Below are positions 44,735 to 64,000 of a stretch of DNA of 64,000 bases, piece after piece. The notes beneath the pieces were generated by a model. It made no database searches, was not told the origin of the DNA, and worked only from the letters and a program-made list of their open reading frames with translations. Numbering within the stretch: position 1 is the stretch's first letter; the number at the start of each line of letters is the position of its first letter. The stretch is from an uncultured Alphaproteobacteria bacterium (lineage in GTDB: Bacteria; Pseudomonadota; Alphaproteobacteria; GCA-2731375), in contig CATOSZ010000001.1 in assembly GCA_951812805.1 (NCBI GenBank), positions 1,054,001 through 1,118,000 of the forward strand, in the 5' to 3' direction. Made by a program: the position numbers and the translations under genes.

Positions 44735-45943
44735 CAGGGGAATCGCATTTGGAATTGCCTTGACGTGCGTGTTTGATCTTGAGGTATTGGCGCGAATCGA
44801 TTCTACCCGGTCTTTTCACGGGTGGAGGTTGCGATGGAAGGCTTTCTGGAGTGCTTTGAGGGTCTCGAGGATCCGCGGACTGGCAATGCCGGGCGTCACG
44901 ATCTGCTGGAGATCTTGACGATCGCCCTGTGCACGGTCCTCTCGGGCGGTCAGACGGCGGTCGACATGGCGATCTTCGCGCGTGAAAAGGAGGCGTTCCT
45001 GCGGGAATTTCTCGTACTCGAACATGGCGTGCCGAGCCACGACACCTTCAGCCGGGTGTTCCGGTTGCTGGATCCGGAGGCGTTCGGCGCCTGCTTCCAG
45101 CGCTTCATGGCGCGCTTTTCCGAGACCTGCCAAGGGGTCATTGCGATCGACGGCAAGGTGGTGCGGCGATCCTACGACAAGGCGAGCGGCACGTCGGCGC
45201 TGCATATGGTCTCGGCCTGGGGCTGTGATCAGCGGCTGGTGTTGGGGCAAGTCGCCACCGACGCCAAGTCCAACGAGATCACCGCCGTGCCGAAGCTGTT
45301 GAAACTATTGAGCCTCGAGGGGACGATCGTGACCGTGGACGCCCTCAATTGCCAGCGCGCCATCGCCAGCCAGATTATCGAGCAGGGGGGTGACTACGCC
45401 CTGGCGTTGAAGGGCAATCAAGGCACGCTGCATGACGACGTGAGAACCTTCCTCGACGATCCGAAAGCCGAAGCGACCACCACCGACACCACGGTCGATG
45501 GCGATCATGGCCGCATCGAGACCCGTGCCGCTCTCGTCTCCAGCCACGTCGAGTGGCTGCAAGAGCGCCATCATTGGCCGGGCCTGAAGGCGGTCGCCAA
45601 AGTCACCCGGACCCGCGAGTGCGCGGAGAAGACGTCGAGCGAAACCGCCTACTACCTGCTCAGCCAGCCGCTCGACGCCGAGCGCTTCAATCCCGTTGCC
45701 CGGGCGCACTGGGGGGTCGAAAACCGCCTGCACTGGTGCCTCGATGTCCAAATGAACGAAGACCAAGACAGAACCCGCAAGGACAATGGACCGCACAATC
45801 TCGCCGTCCTGCGCCACATGGCGCTCAATGTCATGCGAAAGGATCCACGAAAAGACTCGCTGCGCGCCAAGTTCAAAATCGCCGCTTGGAACAACGACTA
45901 TCTCCTGTCACTCCTCGGCAAATTCTGAAATGCGATTGCCCTG
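44735..45943 (+). mobile_element. ISAs1-family insertion sequence, complete, 1209 bp
   Basis: Bounded by terminal inverted repeats CAGGGGAATCGCATTT (44735-44750) and its near-complement at 45928-45943 (CAGGGCAATCGCATTT read inward, 15 of 16 identical), with an exact 10-bp duplication outside. It carries one intact transposase gene and no cargo. The flanking gene has no other damage and the duplication copies are identical, so insertion is likely recent. Confidence 0.95.
44834..45928 (+). CDS. ISAs1 family transposase
   Basis: 364 residues from the ATG at 44834 (GGAGG 5 bases upstream). DDE transposase: first Asp in VIAIDGKVVRRSYD, second in GTIVTVDALNCQRAIA, Glu in HWGVENRLHWCLDVQMNED. The N-terminal part DPRTGNAGRHDLLEILTIAL is typical of the family. 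The frame is uninterrupted and the TGA ends at the inner edge of the right inverted repeat. It catalyses cut-and-paste movement of the element. Confidence 0.95.
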   Translation: MEGFLECFEGLEDPRTGNAGRHDLLEILTIALCTVLSGGQTAVDMAIFAREKEAFLREFLVLEHGVPSHDTFSRVFRLLDPEAFGACFQRFMARFSETCQGVIAIDGKVVRRSYDKASGTSALHMVSAWGCDQRLVLGQVATDAKSNEITAVPKLLKLLSLEGTIVTVDALNCQRAIASQIIEQGGDYALALKGNQGTLHDDVRTFLDDPKAEATTTDTTVDGDHGRIETRAALVSSHVEWLQERHHWPGLKAVAKVTRTRECAEKTSSETAYYLLSQPLDAERFNPVARAHWGVENRLHWCLDVQMNEDQDRTRKDNGPHNLAVLRHMALNVMRKDPRKDSLRAKFKIAAWNNDYLLSLLGKF

Positions 45944-45953: not shown

Positions 45954-47819
45954 CGCGGCAGGATCGGACAGGGTCAGGCCGCCCGCCTTCGTCACGGCCA
46001 CGCCGTTGCGCAGTGCCGCAACGGCAATCTCGTCGGACTTCGGCTTCACCGCGACGCCCTGGATCGAGGCCAGTACGGTGAATTCGGCAAACTCGCGCGT
46101 GCGCGGCACGCCATACTCCGAGGGCAGCACCGGCACCGTATAGAACAGCTCGCCGGTGTCCGGATCGTGCACCGGAACCCGCTTGCCGGTATCGATGACG
46201 GGCAAAAAGACCCGCGCGCCGCCCGCCGCCTTCATTTGCCGGACGGTGGCGATCGCCCGCTTGGGCGGCCGCCGCTCGCGCTGCGTCGCCAGAAACCAGA
46301 TCGGACCCTCGCGCCGGAGGCCGGCGGTCAGGCCGTCGCGCAGCCGCAGACGCAGAATGGTCGCGCCCGAATAACGCAGTTGCTCAATTCGCTGCAACGG
46401 ACCGTCTCGCGCGGCCAGGCCGGCCAGGTCCGGCTGATCGTGCCGGTCGAACACGAGCCAGACGTCGTCGCGCCAGGCATAGGCCGCCGCCGCGACGGGC
46501 ACCGGCCATTGGAAGCGCATGTCCATCCCCTCCCCCGTCTCGGCCAGGCGGATCGACAGTCCGTTCGGATTGCCGACGACGACGGCTTTCGGTCTATCGC
46601 CGGCCGTGGCGGCCGCCGGGGTCGCTGCCTCATCCACCGTCGGGCCCGGCGCGGAGGGCGATCGTGGCGTCTTGCCGGTGGCGCCCACGCCGTCGCGGTG
46701 CAGACGCATCGGCTTGCCGGTCGCCGGCGCCCGTCGACTTTCGCTCGGCGCCACGACGGAGATCTTGACCCGGGTTTCGGAGAGCTCCTTGGCGATCTGG
46801 TCCCGCGCCTCGTAGAGGGCCGCCAGTTCAGGATCCGAGGCTTGGGCTGCTGGCTTTGTTGGCGGGGCCGTTGGCCGTTTTGGACCTGCGGGCCGGCTCG
46901 ATTTTTTCGGTGCGGACGACACCGCCGGTGCCGCCTTGGGCGCCGGGGCCGGGCGGGCCGGCTCGGCGGCGACGGGGGCCGCTTCGACCCGCTTCGGTCC
47001 CGCGTCGCTCGCCAGTTTGCGCCGAACGGGTGCCGGCTTTTCCGGAGCGGGTTTGGCGGGCGCCGGCTTGGCGATCTCCGTCGGCTTCGGCGCGGGCGGA
47101 GACGGCTTCGGCTTGCCGGTCGTCTTCGGCGCCGCGGCGGTGCGCGATATGTCGACGACGACGCGTCGATCCTCGACCCGGAAATGACGTGCCTCAGCCG
47201 CCCGGGTCAGCTCGATGCTGACCACGGTTTCCCCGCCCTCCACCGACGCACGGACATCGCGGACCAGGGGCAGGCCGGTTCGCCGCACCTGGCCGAGATC
47301 CAAATTCGCCGGCGCGGCGAACCGGGCCTCGATCCGTTTGCCCTCCTGGCGAAAGCGATAGTCGACCTTGCGCGGCCAATCGAAGACCAGGCGCTCGAAG
47401 GCCGCGTGCTCGCCGGCCCGCACCGACACTTTCGGCACATCCGCGGGCGTTGCCTGTGCCCCTCGGGGCCGCAAGTCGTAGACGACCGAGGTGCCGGAGA
47501 GGAAGGTCGTCGTCGTCACGGGCTGGGCCAGCGAAAGACGGACACCAAGCCCGTCCGCCGTCGCCCGCGCCGTCTTCACGTAGGCGCGTAGACGACGGGG
47601 CAGCCGGTCGTAGCTCGCCTCGATCTTTCGCTCGAACCGGATGACCAGACTATCGCCTGATTGTTCGACGCGATGCGTCACCGGCGCCTTCCAATCGAAG
47701 ACGATGCGGGCGAAATCGGCATGCAGGCCCGTGCGCACCGTGACCGGCTCCGCCCACGCCGGCGCTGCCATTGTGACGAAGGCGGCCAATGCCGTGCCTA
47801 TCGTGAACTTTCTAACCAT
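45944..47819 (-). pseudogene. N-terminal part of the AMIN/TPR motility protein, cut by an IS
   Basis: About 625 residues from ATG 47819, whose codons overlap the stop of the MotB-like gene. Signal peptide VRKFTIGTALAAFVTMAAPA, then two AMIN-like repeats (HADFARIVFDWKAPVTHRV and HAAFERLVFDWPRKVDYRF), a long Pro/Ala/Lys-rich linker (about 240-345), a coiled coil, and a third beta repeat region. AMIN domains bind peptidoglycan or envelope complexes. With the 3' part the intact protein would be about 1203 aa. In related bacteria such large proteins follow motB-like genes, so an envelope-side motor role is inferred. Now truncated, unless it is still made as a fragment. Confidence 0.88.
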
Positions 47820-48540
47820 TGCCGTCCCCCTCCATCGGGGCATCGCGAAGCACCACCAGATCGACGCGGGCGCCGAGCCGCAAGCGACGGTGGGCCTCGA
47901 TCCGGGGTGAGATTTCGTAGAACCGTCCGGCGCCGAGGCCGGCGGCGCGCAGGTTGAGGAGCCGTCCTTCGGCCGCGATCACGTCGGCGACCGCCAGGGC
48001 GCGGGCGAGTGTGAGGCGCCAGAGCGCGCCTTCGTCCCCGTCGTCGCCCCGCGGCACGCCGTGGCCTTCGACCTCGACCTGATTGCCGATGAAGCGCAGC
48101 GCGCCGGCCAGCAGCAGGACGGAATGGCGCGCGTCCGACGCGAGTTCGGCGCTGGCGGGGCGGAACATCCGGTCGCCCGGCAACGACAGCACCAGGCGAT
48201 CGTCCAGCCGCTGTAGCACCGCGTCCCCCAGCAACGGATCGGCTCGCAGCTTCTCGCTCAGCACCGCCTCCAAATAGCCGAGTTCGACCGCGCCGACGCG
48301 GTGCGCGTGCTCGGCTTGCGGCTCTTGCACCAGGCGCACCTCCCGCCATTCCTCGCGCGGGCTCAACCGGTCGGTCATCGCCTCGACCAGGCTTTCCCAG
48401 GCATCCAGGCGGATCTGCGACATCGAGAAGACGAGCACGAAGAACGTCAGCATCAAGGCCAGCAAATCGGAGAAGGTCACCAGCCAGGCGTCCCGGGCGC
48501 CGGGATCGGGTTCACGCTCGGGCGGGGGGACCGGCATCAT
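47812..48540 (-). CDS. MotB-like flagellar motor protein (OmpA-type)
   Basis: 242 residues. N-terminal stator helix DAWLVTFSDLLALMLTFFVL with the MotB-type Asp in the membrane, followed by VFSMSQI, a plug-like region, then an OmpA-like peptidoglycan-binding domain (LRFIGNQVEVEGHGVPRGDD and LALAVADVIAA-type helix). It overlaps the 226-aa gene upstream and the large AMIN/TPR gene downstream. No motA-like gene is in the window, so it may pair with another channel protein or serve as an accessory stator factor. Confidence 0.82.
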   Translation of the reverse strand: MMPVPPPEREPDPGARDAWLVTFSDLLALMLTFFVLVFSMSQIRLDAWESLVEAMTDRLSPREEWREVRLVQEPQAEHAHRVGAVELGYLEAVLSEKLRADPLLGDAVLQRLDDRLVLSLPGDRMFRPASAELASDARHSVLLLAGALRFIGNQVEVEGHGVPRGDDGDEGALWRLTLARALAVADVIAAEGRLLNLRAAGLGAGRFYEISPRIEAHRRLRLGARVDLVVLRDAPMEGDGNG

Positions 48541-49217
48541 GGCGCCAACCCGCCGAAATCAAGGATCGCATCGCCGAGCGGGCGATCGAAGAAGGTCAGC
48601 CGCGCATGGCCGATCGGCGCCTCACCGAGGGCGAGACGGATCGACGAGGCCGGCACGCCCTGGGCCCGCAGGCTGGTCGCAAAGGCGGCGAGACGGTCCA
48701 TCAGGAAGCGGCGCTCGGGCGCCCGCTCGCGGCCGAGATCGGGTCCGGCCCCCAGGCGGAGCTCGACTTCGAAGCGGCGGCCCGCCTCGTCCCGGGTCAG
48801 GTTGTCCGCCATGGCGGCGAGGATGTCGACGGTGCGCGAATGCATCTCGGCGCGCGACCAGCGGAACAGGTAGCTCGCCGGCACCGCCGCCTCCAACACC
48901 GCGCCGGCGCGCGTCAACTCGGTCGTCTTCAGAGGGACGCTCGGCTCGAACATGCCCTCCAGCCCCTCCTGGAAACTGGCACCGCTGGTGAACAGGCCCG
49001 CGCGCGTGCCGGCGGCGGTATGGTCGCTCGGCGTGTCGCGCCCCGAACTGAAGGTGGCCGCCACGCTGCCCACGGCCATTTCCACGCGAAGCTGCTCGAC
49101 GCTCGAGAGGGCGTTCAACAGGATGAAGAAACCCAGCATCAGCAGAAAGATCGAGAGGAAGACGATCACGTTCGGATCGCGCCGCCTGGCCGCCGGAGTG
49201 TTCGCCGGCTGGTCCAT
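48537..49217 (-). CDS. Second MotB-like single-span membrane protein
   Basis: 226 residues. One N-terminal helix (VIVFLSIFLLMLGFFILLNA, about 18-37) and a periplasmic domain with weak OmpA-like pattern near the C-terminus (LRAQGVPASSIRLALGEAPI). It lacks the membrane Asp typical of MotB, so it cannot conduct protons by itself. It lies 6 bases after cheZ and overlaps the next gene by 4 bases; a heteromeric partner of the 242-aa MotB-like protein is likely. Confidence 0.7.
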   Translation of the reverse strand: MDQPANTPAARRRDPNVIVFLSIFLLMLGFFILLNALSSVEQLRVEMAVGSVAATFSSGRDTPSDHTAAGTRAGLFTSGASFQEGLEGMFEPSVPLKTTELTRAGAVLEAAVPASYLFRWSRAEMHSRTVDILAAMADNLTRDEAGRRFEVELRLGAGPDLGRERAPERRFLMDRLAAFATSLRAQGVPASSIRLALGEAPIGHARLTFFDRPLGDAILDFGGLAP

Positions 49218-49223
49218 CGGAAC

Positions 49224-49865
49224 TCAGTCGAAACTCGCCAGAAGGGCGTCGATGTCGTCCTGATTGTTGGCGGCATCGGGCATCGAGGGGCCGTTCAACA
49301 GGCCGCCGTCTTCACCATCCGCGACGTCCTCGACGGCGGCGCGCGGCGACGTGCCCTCACTGACATCGGCGAGGTTGGCCAGTTTGTCCTCGATGGTCTT
49401 CAGGAGGTTGACGACCTTGGAAATTCGTTGCCCGGTGATGTCCTGAAAGCTCGAGGCCTCGTAGATCCGCGTCGCCAAACCCCGGATCACATCACCGCGC
49501 GCAACATCGCCTTCTTCCTCGACGAGGGCCTCCAACGATTCGGCGACATCGAGGATGGTGTCCGTTGCGTCCGCCGTGGCGTTCACGACCTCGTCCAACT
49601 CATCGGACGCGGGGCGGATCTGCTCCTGGCGAATGCGGTCGGGCTGGATCGAGGCGATCTCGGCCCGGGTGATGCGAATGAAGTCGACCAGCTCCGACAA
49701 CTCGTCGTGCAGCTTCAGGTCGGCGAGATTGATGTCCCCCTCGATCGAGGTCATCAGGCAATGGACGACGTCGGCGACATCGTCCAGGGAAACGGCCCCG
49801 CCGTTCGCCTCGCGCAACGCCTCGACATTGCGCAGAAAGCCATCCGCATTACCCGCGATATTCAT
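49224..49865 (-). CDS. cheZ: CheZ-type chemotaxis phosphatase
   Basis: 213 residues. The central helix hairpin has the CheZ active-site motif EASSFQDITGQRISKVVNLL with the catalytic Gln. The C-terminal end NNQDDIDALLASFD is the CheY-P-docking peptide and is strikingly like the FliM peptide LNQDEIDSLLGF in this window. It dephosphorylates CheY-P to reset motor direction. First gene of the cheZ-MotB-like-AMIN/TPR operon. Confidence 0.88.
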   Translation of the reverse strand: MNIAGNADGFLRNVEALREANGGAVSLDDVADVVHCLMTSIEGDINLADLKLHDELSELVDFIRITRAEIASIQPDRIRQEQIRPASDELDEVVNATADATDTILDVAESLEALVEEEGDVARGDVIRGLATRIYEASSFQDITGQRISKVVNLLKTIEDKLANLADVSEGTSPRAAVEDVADGEDGGLLNGPSMPDAANNQDDIDALLASFD

Positions 49866-53231: not shown

Positions 53232-54098
53232 ATGTCGATACGATTGATCCTATGCGCTCTCGCCGGCGGCAGCGGCGACGCGGGCGCCATCACGGCGGGA
53301 CTGCGCGTCGCGCAACGCTTCGATGCCCACCTCAGGGCGGTCCACGTCACGGGCGGGCTGACGGACCATCTACCCCATGTCGATGAAAGCATGTCCCAGC
53401 GCCAGATCGCGCGCGAATTCGAAGCCATGACGGCGCGACGCAACGCCGCCGGAATCCAGGCGGAGACCAGCTTTCGCGAGGCCTGCGAGAGGACGGGCGT
53501 CCCGCTCCGCGATGCGCCCAGCGGCGCGACAGGGGCTACCGCCTCGTGGCGCGGCCTGGAGGGACGTCCCGAGGTCGTGGTGAGCGAGTTCGCCCGCACC
53601 CACGATCTCGTCGTGATGAGCGCCTTGGACCGTCACGACGTCGTGCCCGGACGCGACCTGGTCGAGGGCGCCTTGTTCGGCGCCGGGCGGCCGGTGCTGG
53701 TGGTGCCCGAAACCGTGCCCGACAGCCTCGGCGAGCGGGTCTTCATCGGCTGGAATCGCAGTGCCCAGTCGGCCCGGGCGGTGGCCGGCGGCATGGCGCT
53801 GATCGAGGCGGGCAAGCATGTCACCATCGCCTATGTCGACACCGGCGCGAAGGCGGGACCGGGCCCGGAAGACCTGGTCGAGGCCCTGCGCTGGCACGGC
53901 GTCGAGGCCAACATCCAACCCATTGCGGCGGAAGGCGGGCCGGTGCACGAGTTGCTGATTTCCCGCGCCATCGACGACGATTCGGATCTGATGATCGTGG
54001 GCGCCTATTCCCATAGCCGGCTGCGCGAGATCGTGATGGGGGGCGTCACCCGCAATATCCTGAACCACCCCCGGCTCGCCACCCTGATGGTCCATTGA
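53232..54098 (+). CDS. Universal stress protein, two-domain
   Basis: 288 residues made of two Usp-type halves. The C-terminal half has the ATP-binding pattern (LMIVGAYSHSRLREIVMGGV, TRNILNHPRLATLMVH). The N-terminal half is degenerate. The GGGAGG site lies 8 bases upstream. It is usually a stress- or starvation-response protein; the choline dehydrogenase gene follows 78 bases later. Confidence 0.88.
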   Translation: MSIRLILCALAGGSGDAGAITAGLRVAQRFDAHLRAVHVTGGLTDHLPHVDESMSQRQIAREFEAMTARRNAAGIQAETSFREACERTGVPLRDAPSGATGATASWRGLEGRPEVVVSEFARTHDLVVMSALDRHDVVPGRDLVEGALFGAGRPVLVVPETVPDSLGERVFIGWNRSAQSARAVAGGMALIEAGKHVTIAYVDTGAKAGPGPEDLVEALRWHGVEANIQPIAAEGGPVHELLISRAIDDDSDLMIVGAYSHSRLREIVMGGVTRNILNHPRLATLMVH

Positions 54099-54099
54099 T

Positions 54100-54125
54100 C
54101 GCCGGCGCCGTTGCGGGCGCCGGCG
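54100..54125 (+). terminator. GC hairpin after the stress protein gene (no T run)
   Basis: CGCCGGCGCC (54100-54109), 6-base loop, GGCGCCGGCG (54116-54125), directly after the stop. No T tract follows, so it could pause, protect or weakly terminate transcription. Confidence 0.4.
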
Positions 54126-54176
54126 GAACGCCGTAAAGCGGTAGCCGTCAACGTCCGGGAGGGGCCCAGCCGCGCC

Positions 54177-55859
54177 ATGGCGCTCGCAGCCGACTACATC
54201 ATCGTCGGCGCCGGTTCGGCCGGCGCCGCGCTCGCCCACAGGCTCTCCGAGGATGGGCGCAACCGGGTGCTGGTCGTGGAGTATGGCGGCAGCGACGCCG
54301 GGCCGTTCATCCAGATGCCGGCCGCGCTCAGCTACCCGATGAACATGGCGCGCTACGATTGGGGCTATGTCACCGAGCCCGAGCCCCATCTCGGCGGGCG
54401 CCGCCTCGCCTGTCCGCGCGGCAAGGTGATCGGCGGCTCGTCCTCGATCAACGGCATGGTCTATGTGCGGGGCCACGCCCGGGACTACGATCACTGGGAA
54501 GCGTCCGGCGCTCGTGGCTGGGGCCATGGCGACGTCCTGCCCTACTTCAAACGGATGGAGCATTGGCACGACGACGGCGGCGACGATGTCGCCGGCCGGG
54601 CCGACCCGTCCAGGCGCGGGCATGACGGGCCGCTGCACGTTAAGCGGGGGCCCCGCGACAATCCGCTGCATCGGGCGTTCATTACCGCCGGCGCCGAGGC
54701 GGGCTACGGCCTCACCGCCGACTACAACGGGGCCCGCCAGGAAGGCTTCGGCCCGATGGAGATGACGGTGTGGCGCGGGCGGCGCTGGTCCGCCGCCAAC
54801 GCCTACCTGAAGCCGGCGCTGCGGCGCGAGAATTGTGCTCTGGTTCGGGCCCGCGCGCGCCGCGTCCTGTTCGAGGGCCGCCGCGCCGTCGGGGTCGAGA
54901 TCGAGCGCGACCTCCGGATCGAGGTCGCCCAGGCCCGGGCCGAGGTGATCCTGGCGGCGAGCTCGATCAACTCACCGACCCTGTTGAAGCTATCGGGCGT
55001 CGGCCCGGGCGACGAACTTGCGGCACATGGCATCGACGTCCAGGCGAACCGCGCCGGCGTCGGCGAGAACCTGCAGGACCACCTCGAACTCTACCTGCAG
55101 TACACTTGCCGCAGGCCGATCACCCTCTATCGTCATTGGAACTGGTTCTCCAAGCTGCTGATCGGCGCCCGCTGGACATTTTTCAAGAGCGGTCTCGGCG
55201 CCTCCAACCAGTTCGAGAGCGCGGCCTTCATCCGCTCGCGCGCCGGCGTCGAGTATCCCGATATCCAGTATCATTTCCTGCCCATCGCCGTGCGCTACGA
55301 CGGACAGGCGGCAGCCGAAGGCCACGGCTTTCAGGCCCATGTCGGGCCCATGCGCTCGGCGAGCCGGGGCCATGTCCGTCTCGCCTCGCCAGATCCGGCG
55401 GCGGCGCCCCGGATCCAGTTCAACTACATGTCGAAGCCTCAGGACTGGGAGGATTTTCGCCGCTGTATCGCACTCACCCGTGAGATCTTCGCCCAGCCCG
55501 CCTTCGCCGACTATGTCGGACGCGAGATCACCCCCGGCGACGGCGTTACGGACGAGGCCGGCCTCGACGCGTTCATCCGAGATCATGTCGAAAGCGCCTA
55601 CCATCCCTGCGGGACCTGTCGCATGGGCGCGGCGGACGACCCGGGCGCCGTGGTCGATCCCGAGTGTCGGGTGATCGGTGTCGAGGGCCTGCGCGTCGCC
55701 GACAGCTCGATATTTCCCCGAATCACCAACGGTAATTTAAACGCGCCCTCGATCATGACCGGTGAAAAAGCGAGCGACCTGATCCTCGGGCGACCCCCGT
55801 TGCCGGCGAGCAACGAGGCGCCCTGGATCCACCCCCAGTGGCCCGATCGGCAACGTTAG
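54177..55859 (+). CDS. betA: Choline dehydrogenase/GMC oxidoreductase
   Basis: 560 residues. GMC family: FAD motif [20 protein letters not shown] at the N-terminus, second FAD region [20 protein letters not shown], and the C-terminal active site [19 protein letters not shown] with a His and the Asn/His region [14 protein letters not shown]. BetA oxidises choline to betaine aldehyde. The position with soxBDAG in the same window suggests choline and betaine use. The substrate could also be another alcohol. The frame is open 66 bases further upstream. Confidence 0.88.
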
Positions 55860-55971
55860 GGCCCGGGAAAGGAAACCGCTGTAGGCTCGAGGCCGGGACC
55901 GCGCCACGTTCCGGTGTAGGCAGAACCGAAACCGCGCGCTATCCTCCACCCGATCGTCCGCGATCCAGTGC

Positions 55972-58467
55972 ATGCCACGGGACCCCATGATGGACACACC
56001 TCGCCCGAGTAACGACGCCGCCGCCGAAACACCCGAGCCAGCGCCGCAGAAGCGTGGACCGAAGCTGCGCCTGCGGGCCCGCAACGCGGGTCCGGAAGCC
56101 GCGCCTGCGCCCGACGGTGCCGCGCCCGAGGCGGCCGTGAAGGAACCGACGTTGGAAGCGCCGGCGTCGGCGGTACCGCCCGCCGGCGAAAACGAGGAGG
56201 CCGCCGCGGCCCCGCCCGAGCCGCGCTGGGAGTTGCCGAGCTCCGCCCTCCGGCAGGAGGCGGCGGACCCCCTGCTCGGCTGCCTGCTCGCCGTGACGAA
56301 ACACTTCGGGCGGCCGAGCACGCCGCAATCGCTCATCAGCGGCCTGCCGCTGGAGGGCAACCGGCTGACGCCGGCCCTCTTCCTGCGCGCCGCCGACCGG
56401 GCCGATCTCAGCTCACGCATCGTCAAACGTCGGTTGAGCGCGCTGCCGGAATACGTGCTGCCGGTGATCTTGTTGTTGAAGGGCCGGACAGCCTGCGTAC
56501 TGTTCAAGCGGGTCGGCCGCGACAAGGCGGAAGTGCTGTTCCCCGAAACCGGCGACGGCAGTGAGGTCATCGATCTCGACGTCCTTAACGCACGCTACGA
56601 CGGCCACGCCATCTTCCTGCGCCCGCGCTACCATTACAGTCAGGTCCAGCGCGAGGTTTTGCTCGGCCGCGGGCGAAGCTGGTTCTGGGGCACGCTCGCG
56701 CGCTTCTGGAAGACCTATCTTGGCGTGATGGTGGCCGCCGCCTTCATCAATCTGCTGGCGCTCGCCTCCCCCCTCTTCGTCATGAACGTCTACGACCGGG
56801 TGGTACCCAACCAGGCGAAGGAGACACTGACGGTCCTGGTCATCGGCATCGGATTGATCTTCGTCTTCGACTTCATGCTGCGATGGCTACGCTCCCACTT
56901 CGTCGACAATGCGGGCAAGCGGGCCGACGTCTTGATGTCGAGCAAGATCTTCCACCAGGTGCTCGGCATCACGATGCAGTCGCGCCCCGGATCCTCCGGT
57001 GCCTTCGCCAACCAGCTGCGCGACTTCGAATGGCTGCGCGAGTTCTTCACCTCGGCCACCGTCGTCGCACTGATCGACCTGCCGTTCCTGTTCGTCTTCG
57101 TTGCCGTCATCTACATGATCGCCGGCCCGGTCGCCTATATCCCGGCAATCGCCGTGCCGGTAGTGATCATCATCGGCCTGGTGCTGCAAATCCCGCTACG
57201 CAGCGCGGTGCGCCAGGCGACGGCGGAAGGCTCGCAGAAGCACGGCGTGATGATCGAGACCATCGCCGCGCTCGATACGGTCAAGAGCCTGGGGGCCGAA
57301 GGCCGCATGCAGCGGGAGTGGGAGAAATACGTCGGCACCTCGGCCAATACGGGCATGCGGGTGCGCAATCTCTCCGGCCTCGGCGTCAACGTGACCCAGC
57401 TGATCCAGCACTTCGTCACCGTCGCCGTCGTCGCCTTCGGCGTCTATTTGATCGCCGACAACGAACTCACCATCGGCGGGCTCATCGCCTGCACGATTCT
57501 GACCGGGCGATGCATGGCGCCGCTCAGCCAGATCGCCAATATCCTCTCCCGCCTGCATCAGTCGATCGCCGCCTTGAAGGCGCTCAACCAGATCATGCGC
57601 ATGCCGGTGGAACGGCCCGAGGATGCCCGCTACCTGAGCCGCGATACCATCGAGGGCTCGATCGCCTTCGAGAACGTCTCCTTCAGCTATCCCGAAGCGG
57701 AAGTGCCGGCCCTGCGCGACGTCTCCTTCAAGATCGAGCCCGGCGAAAAGGTCGCGATCATCGGCCCGGTCGGTTCCGGCAAGTCGACGATCTCGCGGCT
57801 TTTGATGAAGCTGTACGAGCCGGACAGCGGCGCGGTCCTGGTCGACGGCACGGACGTTCGGCAGATCGATCCGAGCGACATCCGCAAGTCGCTCGGCGTG
57901 CTGCTGCAGGACGTCATTCTGTTCCACGGCAGTGTCCGCGACAACATCGCGATGGCGACGCCGCATGCCGACGACGACATGATCCTGCGCGCCGCCAACC
58001 TCGCCGGCGTGCACGAGTTCATCTCACAGCAGCCCGCCGGCTACGACCTCGTCGTCGGCGAGCGGGGACAGACGCTGTCCGGTGGACAGCGCCAATGCAT
58101 CGCGCTCGCCCGGTCCCTCCTGCCCGACCCGCCGGTCGTGGTCCTGGACGAGCCGACGAGCATGATGGACATGCCGGCGGAGAACGCCTTCAAGCAGCGC
58201 ATGCGGGACTATCTCTCCGGCAAGACCCTGGTGCTGGTGACCCACCGGCCTTCGCTGCTGGACCTGGTCGACCGGGTGATCGTCATCTCGCGCGGCCGTG
58301 TCGTCGCCGACGGTCCGCGCGACGAGGTGTTGAAAAAAGGCCGAAGCAACGCCAAACGCCAGGCCGCCCAGGAGCAACCCGCTGCGGCGACGCCGCCTGG
58401 GTCCGGGGCCGCCGCGACGGTGCAACGCCCGCAGGCCCCGGCGGCGACGCCGGCGCCGGGCGAATAG
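55972..58467 (+). CDS. Type I secretion ABC transporter/ATPase (LapB-like)
   Basis: 831 residues. An Ala/Pro-rich leader (about 1-90), then a degenerate C39 peptidase-like domain (DPLLGCLLAVTKHFG) without a working catalytic triad, six transmembrane helices (about 245-520), and the nucleotide-binding domain: Walker A IIGPVGSGKST, signature LSGGQRQ, Walker B VVVLDEPTSMMD. The TIGR03375/LapB group exports large surface adhesins or RTX proteins. Start codons at 55987 and 55990 are alternatives. Followed by the adaptor, a LapG-like protein and an HD-GYP-type protein. No outer-membrane TolC-like gene nor adhesin substrate is in the window. Confidence 0.92.
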   Translation: MPRDPMMDTPRPSNDAAAETPEPAPQKRGPKLRLRARNAGPEAAPAPDGAAPEAAVKEPTLEAPASAVPPAGENEEAAAAPPEPRWELPSSALRQEAADPLLGCLLAVTKHFGRPSTPQSLISGLPLEGNRLTPALFLRAADRADLSSRIVKRRLSALPEYVLPVILLLKGRTACVLFKRVGRDKAEVLFPETGDGSEVIDLDVLNARYDGHAIFLRPRYHYSQVQREVLLGRGRSWFWGTLARFWKTYLGVMVAAAFINLLALASPLFVMNVYDRVVPNQAKETLTVLVIGIGLIFVFDFMLRWLRSHFVDNAGKRADVLMSSKIFHQVLGITMQSRPGSSGAFANQLRDFEWLREFFTSATVVALIDLPFLFVFVAVIYMIAGPVAYIPAIAVPVVIIIGLVLQIPLRSAVRQATAEGSQKHGVMIETIAALDTVKSLGAEGRMQREWEKYVGTSANTGMRVRNLSGLGVNVTQLIQHFVTVAVVAFGVYLIADNELTIGGLIACTILTGRCMAPLSQIANILSRLHQSIAALKALNQIMRMPVERPEDARYLSRDTIEGSIAFENVSFSYPEAEVPALRDVSFKIEPGEKVAIIGPVGSGKSTISRLLMKLYEPDSGAVLVDGTDVRQIDPSDIRKSLGVLLQDVILFHGSVRDNIAMATPHADDDMILRAANLAGVHEFISQQPAGYDLVVGERGQTLSGGQRQCIALARSLLPDPPVVVLDEPTSMMDMPAENAFKQRMRDYLSGKTLVLVTHRPSLLDLVDRVIVISRGRVVADGPRDEVLKKGRSNAKRQAAQEQPAAATPPGSGAAATVQRPQAPAATPAPGE

Positions 58468-58482
58468 GGCCGGAGGGCGACC

Positions 58483-59808
58483 ATGGCACGCAGACGGGAT
58501 TGGCACGACGCGCAGTTCGCCTCCGAGGTCGAGAACTCGATGGTGCAGGGGCCGAACCCGACCCTCTATACCGTCTTCATCCTGGTCATCTGCCTACTGG
58601 TCGCCGCCTTCTTCTGGGCCTATGCGGCGGAGGTCGACGAAGTCACGCGGGGCGAAGGCCGCATCATCCCCTCTTCCAAGACGCAAATCGTACAGAACCT
58701 CGAGGGTGGCATCCTGAAGGAAGTGTTCGTCCAGGACGGCGACACGGTGAAGGAAGGCACCGTTCTGCTACGAATCGACGACACGGGCGCCGCCTCCAGC
58801 TACGGCGAATTGAAGGCCGGCCGCTTTGCCCTGATGGGCCGGGTCGCCCGCCTGATCGCCCAGGCCGAAAACAAGCCCCTGCAGTTCCCGCCCGAGCTGA
58901 TGGCCGAGGCCCGCGTCATCGCGGTCAACGAAGAACAGCTGTTCAACGCCAGCGAAAGCGCGCTGCAGTCGCAGATCCAGATCCTTCGGGTGCAGGCTGA
59001 CCAGCGCAAGCAGGAGCTGGCGGAGCTCTACGGCAAGATCTCCAAGTTCAAGACGAGCCTGAAGCTCGCCAACGACGAGTTGAAGCTGACCGAGCCGCTG
59101 GCCAAGAAGGGCATCGTGCCGGCGATCGACCTCATCCGGATCAAGCGTCAGGTCGCCGACCTCGCGGGCGAGTTGAAGACGACGCAGCTGGCGGTGCCGC
59201 GTGCCAAGTCGGCCGAGCAGGAAGCCCATCGGCGGATCGAGGAGAAGTTCAACACGCGGCGCACCGAGTCGCTGACCGAGTTGAACCAGGCGCGCGCGGA
59301 ATTGGCCCAGCTGGAGGAGACGATCGGCGCGGCGCGCGACCGGGTCGTGCGCACCGACGTCGTCTCGCCGGTGAACGGCATCATCAAGGAGTTGAAGGTT
59401 CGAACCCTCGGCGGTGTCATCAAGCCCGGCATGGACCTCGTCGAGATCGTGCCGGTCGACGACTCGCTTCTGGTCGAAGCCAAGATCCGTCCCGCCGACA
59501 TCGCCTTCCTCAGCCTCGACCAGGTCGCGACGGTGAAGCTCACCGCCTACGATTTCTCGATCTACGGCGGCCTGGACGGCCGGTTGGAGCGGATCAGCGA
59601 CGACACCATCACCGACGAGGAGGGGGAAGCCTTCTATCACGTCATCATCCGCACCGATCAAAACTTCCTGGAGCGGGGTGAGGAGCGCCTGCCGATCATC
59701 CCCGGCATGGTTGCCAGCGTCGACGTGCTGACCGGTCGCAAGACCATCCTCGACTATCTGTTGAAGCCCATCCTCAAGGCGCGGAACAACGCGTTGAGCG
59801 AACGGTGA
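58483..59808 (+). CDS. HlyD-family type I secretion adaptor (LapC-like)
   Basis: 441 residues. One N-terminal transmembrane helix (TVFILVICLLVAAFFWAYAA, about 28-47), lipoyl/barrel-sandwich halves (IVQNLEGGILKEVFVQDGD and VRTDVVSPVNGIIKELKV), and a long coiled-coil hairpin between them (about 140-290). It links the inner-membrane transporter to the outer-membrane channel. Its stop overlaps the GTG start of the next gene (GTGA, 59805-59808). Confidence 0.93.
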   Translation: MARRRDWHDAQFASEVENSMVQGPNPTLYTVFILVICLLVAAFFWAYAAEVDEVTRGEGRIIPSSKTQIVQNLEGGILKEVFVQDGDTVKEGTVLLRIDDTGAASSYGELKAGRFALMGRVARLIAQAENKPLQFPPELMAEARVIAVNEEQLFNASESALQSQIQILRVQADQRKQELAELYGKISKFKTSLKLANDELKLTEPLAKKGIVPAIDLIRIKRQVADLAGELKTTQLAVPRAKSAEQEAHRRIEEKFNTRRTESLTELNQARAELAQLEETIGAARDRVVRTDVVSPVNGIIKELKVRTLGGVIKPGMDLVEIVPVDDSLLVEAKIRPADIAFLSLDQVATVKLTAYDFSIYGGLDGRLERISDDTITDEEGEAFYHVIIRTDQNFLERGEERLPIIPGMVASVDVLTGRKTILDYLLKPILKARNNALSER

Positions 59809-60491
59809 GAGCGGCTCGAAAATACCTCGCGGGACTGCTGTTCCCGCTGCTGGTGGCGACGACGGCTTATGGCGCGAGCGGACAGGCCTCGGCGCCGGTG
59901 GGCATATTCGGCTACATCGAATTCGCCTCCGACAATCTCGCCGCCCTGCCCGTCTGGCGCGACGCCCTTTCCAGAATTGCGGTAGATCGGGAACGGGGCC
60001 GGGCTTGCGACGCCGATGCCGCACGTTGCACGGGCATGATCGTCACCGTGTGGCGCGCCAAAGTGCAGGAACTTTCGGGCCTAGAGCTGGAACGTCAGTT
60101 GGCCGAGGTGAACCGCTATGCCAATGGCCAGGGGAAGGCGGCGAGGCCCGCCGGCGGGGAAGCCATCGAACGCTGGGCCGGACCGATCGAGTTCCTCGAA
60201 CAAGGCGGCGGGGCAGAGGCGTTCGCCATCTTGAAATTCGCGACCCTGCGCGAGCTCGGCATTGCGAACGAAGCCCTGCGGATTACCATCGTCTACGACA
60301 CGCTGCGCAACCGGCGCCATGCCGTCGTCGTCGTTCGTCACGGCACGGGCTTTCGGGTACTCGATACCTGGAGTGATGCGGTGCTCGACGTGGAACGACT
60401 GAAATACTACGTGCCGCTCTATTCGGTGAACGAAACGACGCGCTGGGCGCACGTCGTCAACCGGCCGCTCGGCCGTGACAAGGCGAAGTAG
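59805..60491 (+). CDS. LapG-family (BTLCP) protein lacking the catalytic cysteine
   Basis: 228 residues with a signal peptide (LAGLLFPLLVATTAYGASG). It matches bacterial transglutaminase-like cysteine proteinases of the LapG type: early CxnC pair (CDADAARC), VNRYANG, GPIEFLEQ, ILKFATLRELGIANE, RHAVVVVRHG with His172 and VLDTW with Asp187. In active LapG the sequence before ILK/IAK is GDCEDYA; here it is GGGAEAFA, so Cys and the Ca2+-binding Asp are absent. LapG normally clips large adhesins in the periplasm. It starts inside the adaptor gene's stop, so it is coupled to the secretion system. Confidence 0.85.
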   Translation: MRAARKYLAGLLFPLLVATTAYGASGQASAPVGIFGYIEFASDNLAALPVWRDALSRIAVDRERGRACDADAARCTGMIVTVWRAKVQELSGLELERQLAEVNRYANGQGKAARPAGGEAIERWAGPIEFLEQGGGAEAFAILKFATLRELGIANEALRITIVYDTLRNRRHAVVVVRHGTGFRVLDTWSDAVLDVERLKYYVPLYSVNETTRWAHVVNRPLGRDKAK

Positions 60492-60493
60492 AC

Positions 60494-62584
60494 ATGTCGG
60501 AGTCGAACGTCCCCACCACCGCCCTCGAGATGTTGAGCGTTCCCACCCTGCGGTCCGAACGGGCCGGCGGAATGCGCATTCTGGCGCTGGCCACATTGTT
60601 CGTCCTGGTCGTGTTGTGCATCGGCATAATTTTCCTCGAGTTTTCGGTGCGGGACGAGGAGGCGGGCCTGCTCGCCAGCACGAGCGATCGCCTCCAGGTT
60701 TCGGCGACGGGCCGGGCCGAGGTTCTCTCCGAATGGCTTAAGGGCCGGCTGGAGCTGGCCGAGCCGATCGCGAACAACGATCTCTATCTCCTGTTCGCGA
60801 CGGAAGTCGATCTCGCCGGGGCGGCGGCTGTGGCGGCCGGGCCGCTCGGCGCGCAGCTGCCCTATATGCAGGCCGGCCTCGCCGCCTTTCAGCGGCAAAC
60901 GGGCCTCACGGGCGCCTATCTCGCCAACGCGGAAGGCGTGGTCTACGCCAACGGCCCCGACGCACCGAGCCTCGATGACGCGCAGCGGGCGGCGGTAAAG
61001 GCCATGTTCCCGAAGAGCGAGGCGCGCATTCTGCCGCTGCGCCAGGCCGGCGACGAGCTCGTCCTCGATCTGCTGGTCCCGCTCCGCCCGGCACAGGCAG
61101 CCTCCGAGGCGCAGGCGGAGCGGACCGTCGGTGTCCTCGTCATGTCGATCCCGGCCGATGCCAGGCTGAGGAGCGCCCTGGCACGCAGCGCGCTCGCCAA
61201 CCAGGGGGAACGGGCACACCTCCTCCAACTCGCGGGTTCTCGCTACAGCGTCGTTCGGCCCGGCGCGACGCCCGGGCTGACGCCGTCCAGCCTGCCCGCG
61301 GGCGAAGCGCCGCGTGCCATCCGCTTCGGCACGCGAAGCGGTCTCGACAATTCCTCGGAGCATCTCTCCGTCGGCGTCGTCGTCGCCGGCGCGCCCTGGG
61401 TCGTCCTGGAGGAGATTTCCAAGGCGGACGCGCTGGAACCGCTCGGCGGCCACCGGCTGTTCGGCGGCTTGATCGTGCTGCTCTCGACCATCGGCTTCGC
61501 CGCCGCGGCGCTGGCCTTCTGGTGGCGCCAGGGCAGCGAGAACAACCGGGCGTTGGCCCAGCAGTATCACGAGCTCGCCGGCCGCCTGCAGACCCAGCGG
61601 CAACTGCTCGACGCCATCAACGGCTCGATCCAGGAGCACATCACCGTCAAGGACGCCGAGGCCAAGTATATCTACGCCAACCCGGCGTTCGCCCGTGCCG
61701 TCGGCCTGCCGGTCGACTCGCTCGTCGGCCTGACCGACCGGGCGCTGTTCCAGAGCGACGAGGCCGAACAACTCGCCACAGAGGACGCGGAAATCATCGC
61801 CGGCGGCGAGGTCGCGGCGCAGATCGTCGCCCTCGACGTCGCCGGAGCCGAGCGGCAGTTCCAGCTTTCCAAGCGCCCCTTCCTCGACGACGAAGACCGG
61901 CGGGTGGGCATCGTCGCCGTCGCCCGCGACATCACCGACATGCTGGAGGCCCAGCGCCTTCGCGAAACCGCGGTGATGAACACCATTCACGCCCTGTCGA
62001 ACACGATCGAAGCGGTCGATCCCTATCTCTCCGGCCATTCCCGCAAGCTCGAAGCGGTGGCCAGCGCCATGGGCCGGGGCCTCGGCCTTTCCGATGCCGA
62101 GGTCGCCACGCTGGAGATCGCCGCCAACCTCTCGCAGATCGGCAAGCTCTCGGTGCCGGCGGAACTGCTGACCAAGTCCGGCCGCCTGAGCGAGGCCGAA
62201 AAGCTGGAGATCCAGGCCCATATCCATCACGCGGACGCCATCCTCGGCGACCTCGACTTCGGCCTGCCGGTACGCGACGTGATGCTGCAGATGCACGAAC
62301 GGCTCGACGGCAGCGGCTATCCGAACGGCCTCGCGGCGGAGCAGATCGACCTCTCGGGCCGCATCCTGGGCGTGGCCGACGTCTTCGTCGCCCGTACCAA
62401 TCCCCGCAGCTACCGTGACGGCGCCCGGCCGGAGGACGTGCTCGACATCTTGCGCAAGAACCTCACGCGCTATGACGAGCGGGTCATCGACGCCCTGGAA
62501 CAGCATCTTGCCCAGGCTGCCAGCCCCAGCCCCGCCCCCGCCGGGACCGACGACGGCGACAACAGCAACGACGGCGGCGGCTGA
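60494..62584 (+). CDS. Membrane PAS/HD-GYP-domain protein with lost HD dyad
   Basis: 696 residues. Transmembrane helix 1 (about 30-50), periplasmic sensor domain (about 55-315), transmembrane helix 2 (about 322-344), PAS domain (about 370-485), then an HD-GYP-type domain (505-665). The GYP motif HERLDGSGYPNGL is intact, but the HDIGK motif reads SQIGK (Ser547-Gln548) and the His pair before ERLDG reads Met-His, so c-di-GMP hydrolysis is unlikely. It lies 2 bases after the LapG-like gene, the place LapD takes in other systems, and may bind rather than cut c-di-GMP. Confidence 0.85.
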   Translation: MSESNVPTTALEMLSVPTLRSERAGGMRILALATLFVLVVLCIGIIFLEFSVRDEEAGLLASTSDRLQVSATGRAEVLSEWLKGRLELAEPIANNDLYLLFATEVDLAGAAAVAAGPLGAQLPYMQAGLAAFQRQTGLTGAYLANAEGVVYANGPDAPSLDDAQRAAVKAMFPKSEARILPLRQAGDELVLDLLVPLRPAQAASEAQAERTVGVLVMSIPADARLRSALARSALANQGERAHLLQLAGSRYSVVRPGATPGLTPSSLPAGEAPRAIRFGTRSGLDNSSEHLSVGVVVAGAPWVVLEEISKADALEPLGGHRLFGGLIVLLSTIGFAAAALAFWWRQGSENNRALAQQYHELAGRLQTQRQLLDAINGSIQEHITVKDAEAKYIYANPAFARAVGLPVDSLVGLTDRALFQSDEAEQLATEDAEIIAGGEVAAQIVALDVAGAERQFQLSKRPFLDDEDRRVGIVAVARDITDMLEAQRLRETAVMNTIHALSNTIEAVDPYLSGHSRKLEAVASAMGRGLGLSDAEVATLEIAANLSQIGKLSVPAELLTKSGRLSEAEKLEIQAHIHHADAILGDLDFGLPVRDVMLQMHERLDGSGYPNGLAAEQIDLSGRILGVADVFVARTNPRSYRDGARPEDVLDILRKNLTRYDERVIDALEQHLAQAASPSPAPAGTDDGDNSNDGGG

Positions 62585-62587
62585 CGC

Positions 62588-63799
62588 GTGTCCCTCATCG
62601 CCAACATGACCGGCCTGCCGGCGCGGGCCCAGGCGCCCATGCTGCTGATCGGCATCGGCCATGGCGGTACGCACCTTGTGACCGCGACCTTTCTGATCCT
62701 GCTCCCCTTCATCAAGGAGGAGCTGGGCCTGAGCTACTTCCAGGCCGGCCTGCTGGTCACGATCTTCCACGCGGCCTCCTTCCTCGCCAACCTGGTGAGC
62801 GGCATGGTCGTCGACATGCTCGGCCGGCGCGTCCTCTTCCAGATCTCCGCCCTGATGGTGGGGGCGTTCGGCCTGGTCGGCTTCGGTCACGCGGGCGGCT
62901 TCCTCTCCCTCGCCTTGCTGATCGCGCTGATCGGCGCGGCCAACAATCTCTGGCATCCGGCGGCGATTTCCTACATCTCGAACCGGTTTCCCGACAATCG
63001 GGGCTATGCGCTTTCGATCCATGCGCTCGGCGCCAACCTCGGCGATGCGATCGCACCGCTGCTGGCGGGCAGTCTGTTGCTGGCGTTGACCTGGCGCGCG
63101 ACGGCGGCCATTTCGGCGATGCCCTCGCTGCTGCTGGCGCTATTGCTGTTGGCGGTTCTGCGGCCGACCGGCGCCAAGAGCGAGGAGCGCCCGGGCCTCG
63201 CCGCCGGTGACTATCTCGCCGGCCTGAAGCGGGTCGTCACCACCCCCTCGGTTCTGCTGCTCTGCTGCATGGCCGGCGTGCGGAGCCTCGGACAAAGCGG
63301 CATCCGCACCTTCCTGCCGCTTTATCTGGTGCAGGTCATGGCGATGGGCCCTGCGCTCTATGGTGCAACGCTGTTCGCCATGCAGATGGGCGGTGTCGTG
63401 GCCGCGCCGATCGCCGGCATCTGGTCGGACCGCATCGGCCGCCGTCCCGTGGTGCTGGCCGGTCTCGGGCTCTCGACGGTCGCACTGCTGCTGCTGACCC
63501 TGATCGGCGACCCCGTGCTGTTCATCGCCGGTGTCTCCCTGCTCGGCTTCGCCCTCTTCGCCGTGCGGCCGGTCATGCAGGGCTGGATGATGGACCTGAC
63601 GCCGCCGGCGCTTGGCGGTTCGGCCACCAGCCTGATGTTCGGCGTACAGACCCTGTTCTCCGTCACCGTACCGGCGGTGGGCGGGCTGATTGCCGACGCC
63701 TGGGGCCTGATCGTCGTGTTCTACTGTCTGGGCGCCACCATGTGCCTCGCCAATCTGCTCGGCTACTTCCTGCCCAAGGACGAGCCGCGCGCGGCCTGA
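62588..63799 (+). CDS. MFS transporter
   Basis: 403 residues starting at GTG 62588, 3 bases after the HD-GYP-type gene. Twelve predicted transmembrane helices with the MFS motif A-like loop DMLGRRVLFQ between helices 2 and 3 and its repeat WSDRIGRRPVVLAG in the second half. The pattern is like fosmidomycin-resistance/Fsr-type MFS members (GHGGTHLVTATFLILLPFIK). Substrate unknown. Close spacing suggests it could be in the secretion operon. Confidence 0.88.
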   Translation: MSLIANMTGLPARAQAPMLLIGIGHGGTHLVTATFLILLPFIKEELGLSYFQAGLLVTIFHAASFLANLVSGMVVDMLGRRVLFQISALMVGAFGLVGFGHAGGFLSLALLIALIGAANNLWHPAAISYISNRFPDNRGYALSIHALGANLGDAIAPLLAGSLLLALTWRATAAISAMPSLLLALLLLAVLRPTGAKSEERPGLAAGDYLAGLKRVVTTPSVLLLCCMAGVRSLGQSGIRTFLPLYLVQVMAMGPALYGATLFAMQMGGVVAAPIAGIWSDRIGRRPVVLAGLGLSTVALLLLTLIGDPVLFIAGVSLLGFALFAVRPVMQGWMMDLTPPALGGSATSLMFGVQTLFSVTVPAVGGLIADAWGLIVVFYCLGATMCLANLLGYFLPKDEPRAA

Positions 63800-63803
63800 G
63801 CCT

Positions 63804-64000
63804 TCAGAACGGGCGCCGCATTTCCCGCATGGTCGACCAGTCCGGCATGGTGGAACCGCCATAGCCCCGCTGCGCGAGCGAGGCGGTGCGAATTTCGCCC
63901 GCCTCGATGCGAAGCCGCGCGCCCGTCCCCGCCGACCGGTAGAGATCGGGGTGCGCGGCGAGAAAAGCGCCCGCCTCGGCCTCGGAGGCATCGGCGAAAC
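63804..64000 (-). CDS. C-terminal end of an unrecognised protein (partial)
   Basis: The last 64 residues of a gene that enters from the right and ends at TGA 63806-63804. It contains HPDLYRSAGTGARLRIEAGE, then RTASLAQRGYGGSTMPDWST and MREMRRPF at the end. I do not recognise the family from this fragment. It is convergent with the MFS gene, with 4 bases between the stops. Confidence 0.6.
   Translation of the reverse strand, partial: FADASEAEAGAFLAAHPDLYRSAGTGARLRIEAGEIRTASLAQRGYGGSTMPDWSTMREMRRPF

Follow-up and report, generated by a model that had tools for sequence, protein, structure and literature searches.

A DvhG/LapG-like protein without its catalytic cysteine in an alphaproteobacterial type I secretion operon

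The window, a stretch of 64,000 nucleotides from an uncultured Alphaproteobacteria bacterium, carries near its right end four plus-strand genes for type I secretion and its apparent control. These genes, and the sites of interest in the third of them, are as follows.

55972–58467, +, type I secretion ABC transporter with a C39-like N-terminal domain, LssB/LapB type (TIGR03375, 1.4e-287, above cut-off; Pfam ABC_tran, ABC_membrane and a sub-threshold Peptidase_C39)
58483–59808, +, HlyD-family periplasmic adaptor, LapC-like (TIGR01843, 1.4e-119, above cut-off)
59805–60491, +, DvhG/LapG-like open reading frame, catalytic Cys absent (PF06035, 2.7e-12; AlphaFold2)
60135–60137, +, Lys111; Tyr in 39 of 39 Cys-bearing relatives and in 0 of 16 Cys-less ones (alignment)
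60204–60224, +, GGGAEAF in place of (S/G)GDCED(Y/F), beginning at residue 134
60318–60320, +, His172, triad position, kept
60363–60365, +, Asp187, triad position, kept
60494–62584, +, DvhD-type receptor with dCache, PAS and degenerate HD-GYP domains (phmmer 9rc0 1.6e-64, 9rbz 1.4e-45, dCache 9rc2 1e-22)

Elsewhere in the window there are a DDE transposase gene (44822–45928; DDE_Tnp_1 and the associated N-terminal domain) and, on the minus strand, adjoining MotB-like and CheZ-family genes (47812–49865). An Rfam search of positions 54000–64000 found no RNA family.

The LapG-like reading frame starts at a GTG, its first 4 bases overlapping the HlyD stop, and it encodes 228 amino acids with a signal-peptide-like N-terminus. 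It matches PF06035 (BTLCP, Peptidase_C93) at 47.2 bits against a gathering score of 27, and Legionella LapG (4fgo) at 9e-12; its score for the NCBIfam LapG equivalog NF045674 (54.7 bits) is below the cut-off of 320. An AlphaFold2 model built from 44 aligned sequences has a mean pLDDT of 87, and its predicted fold is that of LapG (4fgq, Z 18.0, rmsd 3.1 over 157 residues). The structure search with this model gave nothing pointing to a function beyond the LapG fold, and Rad4/XPC were among the structural neighbors. The Rad4 and XPC proteins contain transglutaminase folds that have no catalytic role, and although they belong to an unrelated pathway they are a precedent for such a fold being kept as a binding module.

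Active enzymes of this family have Asp-Cys-Glu-Asp where residues 136–139 of the window protein are Gly-Ala-Glu-Ala. The nucleophile is thus replaced by Ala137 and two Ca2+-binding aspartates by Gly136 and Ala139, leaving Gly136-x-Glu138-Ala139 in place of the acidic Ca2+ site Asp-x-Glu-Asp, with the acidic ligand Glu138 kept. The earlier note, made from the sequence alone, had described a LapG-family protein that lacks the Cys and Ca2+-binding Asp, with GGGAEAF at the motif and His172 and Asp187 in place, and this description is correct, with the one refinement that of the acidic Ca2+ ligands only the two Asp are gone (the motif runs from residue 134 at base 60204, and the two triad residues start at 60318 and 60363). 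More broadly, the protein departs from six of the 31 columns that are invariant in 30 intact homologs, by Y111K, D114R, D136G, C137A, D139A and L175V. Three separate codons of the motif differ within an open frame, the rest of the alignment is collinear and no more than six of the 31 invariant columns have changed, so the altered motif is not a matter of chance or of a simple sequencing error.

The gene downstream of the LapG-like frame encodes a receptor of 696 amino acids with PAS and HD-GYP domains, whose best DvhD match is the PAS/HD-GYP structure 9rc0. The DvhDG system has so far been characterised in Desulfovibrio, whose DvhD acts as a receptor for c-di-GMP without hydrolysing it and carries SQ where the HD dyad would stand (PMC13090378). 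In a motif alignment the window receptor likewise has SQ for the HD dyad and Met for the first His of the double His; its segments ANLSQIGK and QMHERLDGSGYP represent the degenerate dyad and the lost double His. The HD dyad is missing in every aligned receptor homolog, and most have SQ. By our own mapping of the published numbering (PMC13090378), six of eight c-di-GMP-binding positions match in the window receptor, while the position of M646 is Arg and that of E668 is Asn in the window copy and most relatives; the DvhD ligand positions are equally kept in groups with Cys-less and with Cys-bearing partners. LapD would be expected downstream, but the gene found there matches the DvhD structures 9rc0, 9rbz and 9rc2 and shares the SQ of DvhD, a point that the earlier note had not seen; this makes the locus a DvhDG operon of an alphaproteobacterium and not a LapDG operon. 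A search of the window's genome with LapD_MoxY_N gave no match above threshold, but the control genomes were equally without a match, so this result was not counted as absence of LapD. The order ABC transporter, HlyD, DvhG, DvhD is the same in nearly all homologous loci that are covered by their contig.

The likeness to DvhG/DvhD of D. vulgaris (PMC13090378) extends to a BTLCP gene beside a dCache-PAS-HD-GYP receptor with the SQ dyad, to type I secretion and probably to retention-domain adhesins with [T/A/P]AAG sites. However, D. vulgaris DvhG is an active Ca2+-dependent cysteine protease with a membrane anchor, whereas the window protein has lost the Cys and two Ca2+-binding Asp and has a signal-peptide-like N-terminus. 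With LapG/LapD of Pseudomonas and Legionella it shares the LapG fold (4fgo/4fgq, Z about 18), the His and Asp positions and an LssB-type secretion system, but it has no catalytic Cys, and its partner is built on HD-GYP where LapD is built on GGDEF-EAL.

A scan of genome contigs for homologs yielded 34 loci, and 14 genomes in a sample of 385 alphaproteobacterial genomes have close matches. Some relatives carry GDCEDY and others are Cys-less, and across the Cys-less clade the Cys is replaced by Ser, Thr, Ala or Gly. The motif is SGDSEDF in three loci (L016, L017 and L020), GGDSEDF in Sneathiella, GGGSRDF in L023 and L053, TGGSENF in L022, SGDTVDA in L026 and RGGGLAA in genome G547, and GGGAEAF was found in the window copy alone among the sampled relatives; the expectation that GGGAEAF would be conserved in the clade was thus not borne out. 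In G547 the entire active site of the DvhG homolog is gone (L136, G547:C1:649000-666000), with Thr for the His and Ser for the Asp of the triad in addition to RGGGLAA, and the gene still lies between HlyD-type and DvhD-type genes. Retention of His and Asp, which had been taken as the mark of a conserved pseudoenzyme, is therefore not such a mark on its own. The 2.0 Mb genome G193 contains two DvhG-DvhD loci (L077 and L076), one with an intact DGDCEDY and one with SGDDEDF, in which Cys has become Asp; the latter is an independent loss of Cys, and Tyr111 is kept in it. A truncated PF06035 fragment with GGDEEDY, Glu standing for Cys, lies beside a transposase reading frame at L003 (G000:C4:325697-325891). 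Searches at the levels of genus, family and order (15 genomes for the order) found no homolog closer to the window protein; its closest relatives are 41–46% identical.

In a DvhG tree built without the active-site columns, the 16 Cys-less rows counted (G193 was left out) form one clade with support 96/96. The partner ABC, HlyD and DvhD genes recover the same clade with SH-aLRT 100, and this is 99 after removal of G547 and four long-branched rows. All 16 sampled homologs nearest to the window protein lack the Cys, and the main outcome that the earlier note had named as refuting, sister species that all carry DCED, did not occur among them. The absence of the Cys is common to a clade and is not the peculiarity of a lone mutant, and the pseudoenzyme reading holds at the level of the clade. 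This is read most simply as one loss of Cys in an ancestor, after which the position was filled in different ways. In the DvhG tree the row closest to the window protein is G547, but both are long branches and their joining is not certain.

Many of these genomes have another BTLCP, which bears the Cys and in Sneathiella is of the HvyA type. The Caulobacter HvyA belongs to the same family, PF06035, but it is an active protein with a role in capsule control, and its gene is not part of a type I secretion operon (PMC4241560). A Cys-bearing HvyA-type BTLCP gene lies near the operon in seven of seven Sneathiella loci with enough upstream sequence (in one, L069, a TolC-like outer membrane protein gene lies between the two), and in G547 a Cys-bearing BTLCP is found a few kilobases from the operon. 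In G395 and in the window's genome there is one on a separate contig (L148 and C3:1639370, respectively). Most genomes of the Cys-less clade have a second BTLCP, and it was not seen in some of the metagenome-assembled ones. Three of seven genomes with an intact DvhG have one as well, and since the numbers are too small and some of the assemblies too incomplete, we do not claim an association between a dead DvhG and a second BTLCP.

The presumed targets were sought in 22 genomes with a profile of the N-terminal retention-like domain, and 18 of them have adhesin candidates. In ten proteins of other than FecR type from Cys-less genomes, the LapG site is PAAG in eight (for example FDPGAVAPAAG and FNPDLVAPAAG, of the type DPxxVAPAAG), AAAG in one and TAVG in one. 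The last two are both from the window's genome (DPEAVAAAAG in L123 and DPNAVDTAVG in L122). With PAAG in 8/10 and AAAG in 1/10, the cleavage motif is generally kept in the clade even though the dedicated protease is dead. In the window's genome neither of the two adhesin genes with the canonical site region is whole: in one an IS66-type transposase gene is inserted, beyond which lies a 2054-amino-acid adhesin body with Big_9/cadherin-like repeats, and the other is broken by an IS21-like element, so the window copy may have lost its targets. The broken genes with retention-like N-termini are L122 and L123/L135 (G000:C1, about 564 kb and 1511–1523 kb). Two giant reading frames of 2381 and 5566 amino acids in the same genome are uninterrupted and have a related N-terminus, with GWAQAAG before a FecR domain. 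These RTX/FecR giants (L126 and L127, on G000:C1 and C3) are 96.7% identical over their N-terminal 970 bases, a recent duplication of an adhesin head, and one of them adjoins a TolC-like gene.

On balance, these comparisons make it probable that the window gene encodes a LapG-type periplasmic protease of the DvhG branch which is catalytically dead and is retained as a non-proteolytic component. It might be argued that the clade has been converted to serine (or threonine) proteases and that activity was lost secondarily in just the window copy and G547, since Ser or Thr occupies the nucleophile position in most of the clade, the surrounding Asp, Glu, Asp, His and Asp persist in Sneathiella and the adhesin cleavage motifs are retained. 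This seems improbable to us. Tyr111 is present in every Cys-bearing protein aligned (30 DvhG-type proteins and nine orphan BTLCPs) and is lost throughout the clade, its replacements being Glu, His, Lys, Gln, Ala, Asn, Phe, Ile and Met, and this speaks against a serine-protease activity of the Ser forms. The homologous HvyA is non-functional as C192S and as C192A (PMC4241560), acidic Ca2+ positions are lost also in L023, L053 and L022, and conversion could not apply to Ala137 of the window copy. That the window protein still cuts by means of an unusual nucleophile supplied from elsewhere is very improbable; His172 and Asp187 are kept in an intact fold, but the position is occupied by Ala, its surroundings showed no new Cys or Ser that is invariant, and changes of Cys to Ala abolish activity in HvyA and in DvhG, where C317A and D316A/E318A are both inactive (PMC13090378). 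A literature search for inactive LapG or BTLCP pseudoproteases found no description of one among the papers covered.

A different possibility is that the window copy is becoming a pseudogene, proteolysis having been lost in an ancestor and the leftover gene being kept only with its operon. The interruption of both canonical target adhesins in its genome is in keeping with this, as are its loss of further Ca2+ ligands relative to the Ser-type relatives, its long branch, the degeneration of the whole active site in G547 and a GC3 of 0.77 (0.88–0.90 in the neighboring genes), which is at the low edge of the range of its relatives. Nevertheless, we hold decay to be the less likely reading, though it is the main rival for this copy. 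The gene retains an open frame, its signal-peptide-like N-terminus and its 4-base overlap with HlyD, two giant adhesins whose N-terminal domain is related are still uninterrupted in the genome, and the window protein matches all 24 columns that are invariant in the other 15 Cys-less proteins. Even at a divergence of about 40% identity, members of the clade encode the protein at full length, and the Cys-less and intact groups have similar mean column entropies (1.52 and 1.62, respectively); only nine of the columns that the intact group conserves have been lost from the dead group, most of them close to the active site. The proposal that the rest of the protein is under purifying selection finds support among clade members, where the Cys-less pair L067/L023 has a dN/dS of about 0.14 (0.09–0.24 in intact DvhG pairs), but not for the window copy itself, which has no relative closer than 41–46% identity. 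In other Sneathiella pairs dN is 0.27–0.36 and dS is saturated, and the values of 0.57–0.64 for L016/L017/L020 were set aside, HlyD in the same pairs giving 0.54–0.71. Three of the six departures of the window protein fall in the six catalytic or Ca2+ columns defined in the literature (hypergeometric about 0.07, our own estimate), which is suggestive but weak evidence that relaxation is confined to the active site.

If the dead DvhG is indeed a retained, non-proteolytic component, it would be kept for binding, either to the retention domain or cleavage region of the adhesin, to the dCache domain of DvhD, or to both. DvhG of D. vulgaris is the docking site of the retention domain, and the modelled contact with DvhD overlaps the path of the substrate (PMC13090378). 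A dead DvhG could then act as a non-catalytic adaptor or shield, c-di-GMP would control access to the adhesin and not cutting by DvhG itself, and in genomes with a second BTLCP that bears the Cys, the cutting would fall to that protein. We offer only tentatively, as a possibility that may well prove wrong, the fuller scheme in which DvhG of this alphaproteobacterial clade is a pseudoprotease that shields or clamps the cleavage site of the adhesin under a dead HD-GYP receptor, with cutting passed to a neighboring HvyA-type BTLCP. The kept cleavage motifs could also reflect cutting by some other protease, with no role for the dead DvhG, and the window copy may have lost its adhesin targets.

In the Lap and Dvh systems described so far, adhesion is under the control of c-di-GMP, which restrains a protease. 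If the receptor, the secretion genes and the cleavage motif are kept here around a dead protease, this would show that the same wiring can operate through binding alone or through a substitute protease. The Ser, Thr, Ala and Gly found at the nucleophile position are a natural set of variants for separating binding from cutting in LapG-type proteins, and the DvhD-type receptor, in an arrangement where both enzymatic-looking partners are inactive, is extended to many alphaproteobacterial lineages.
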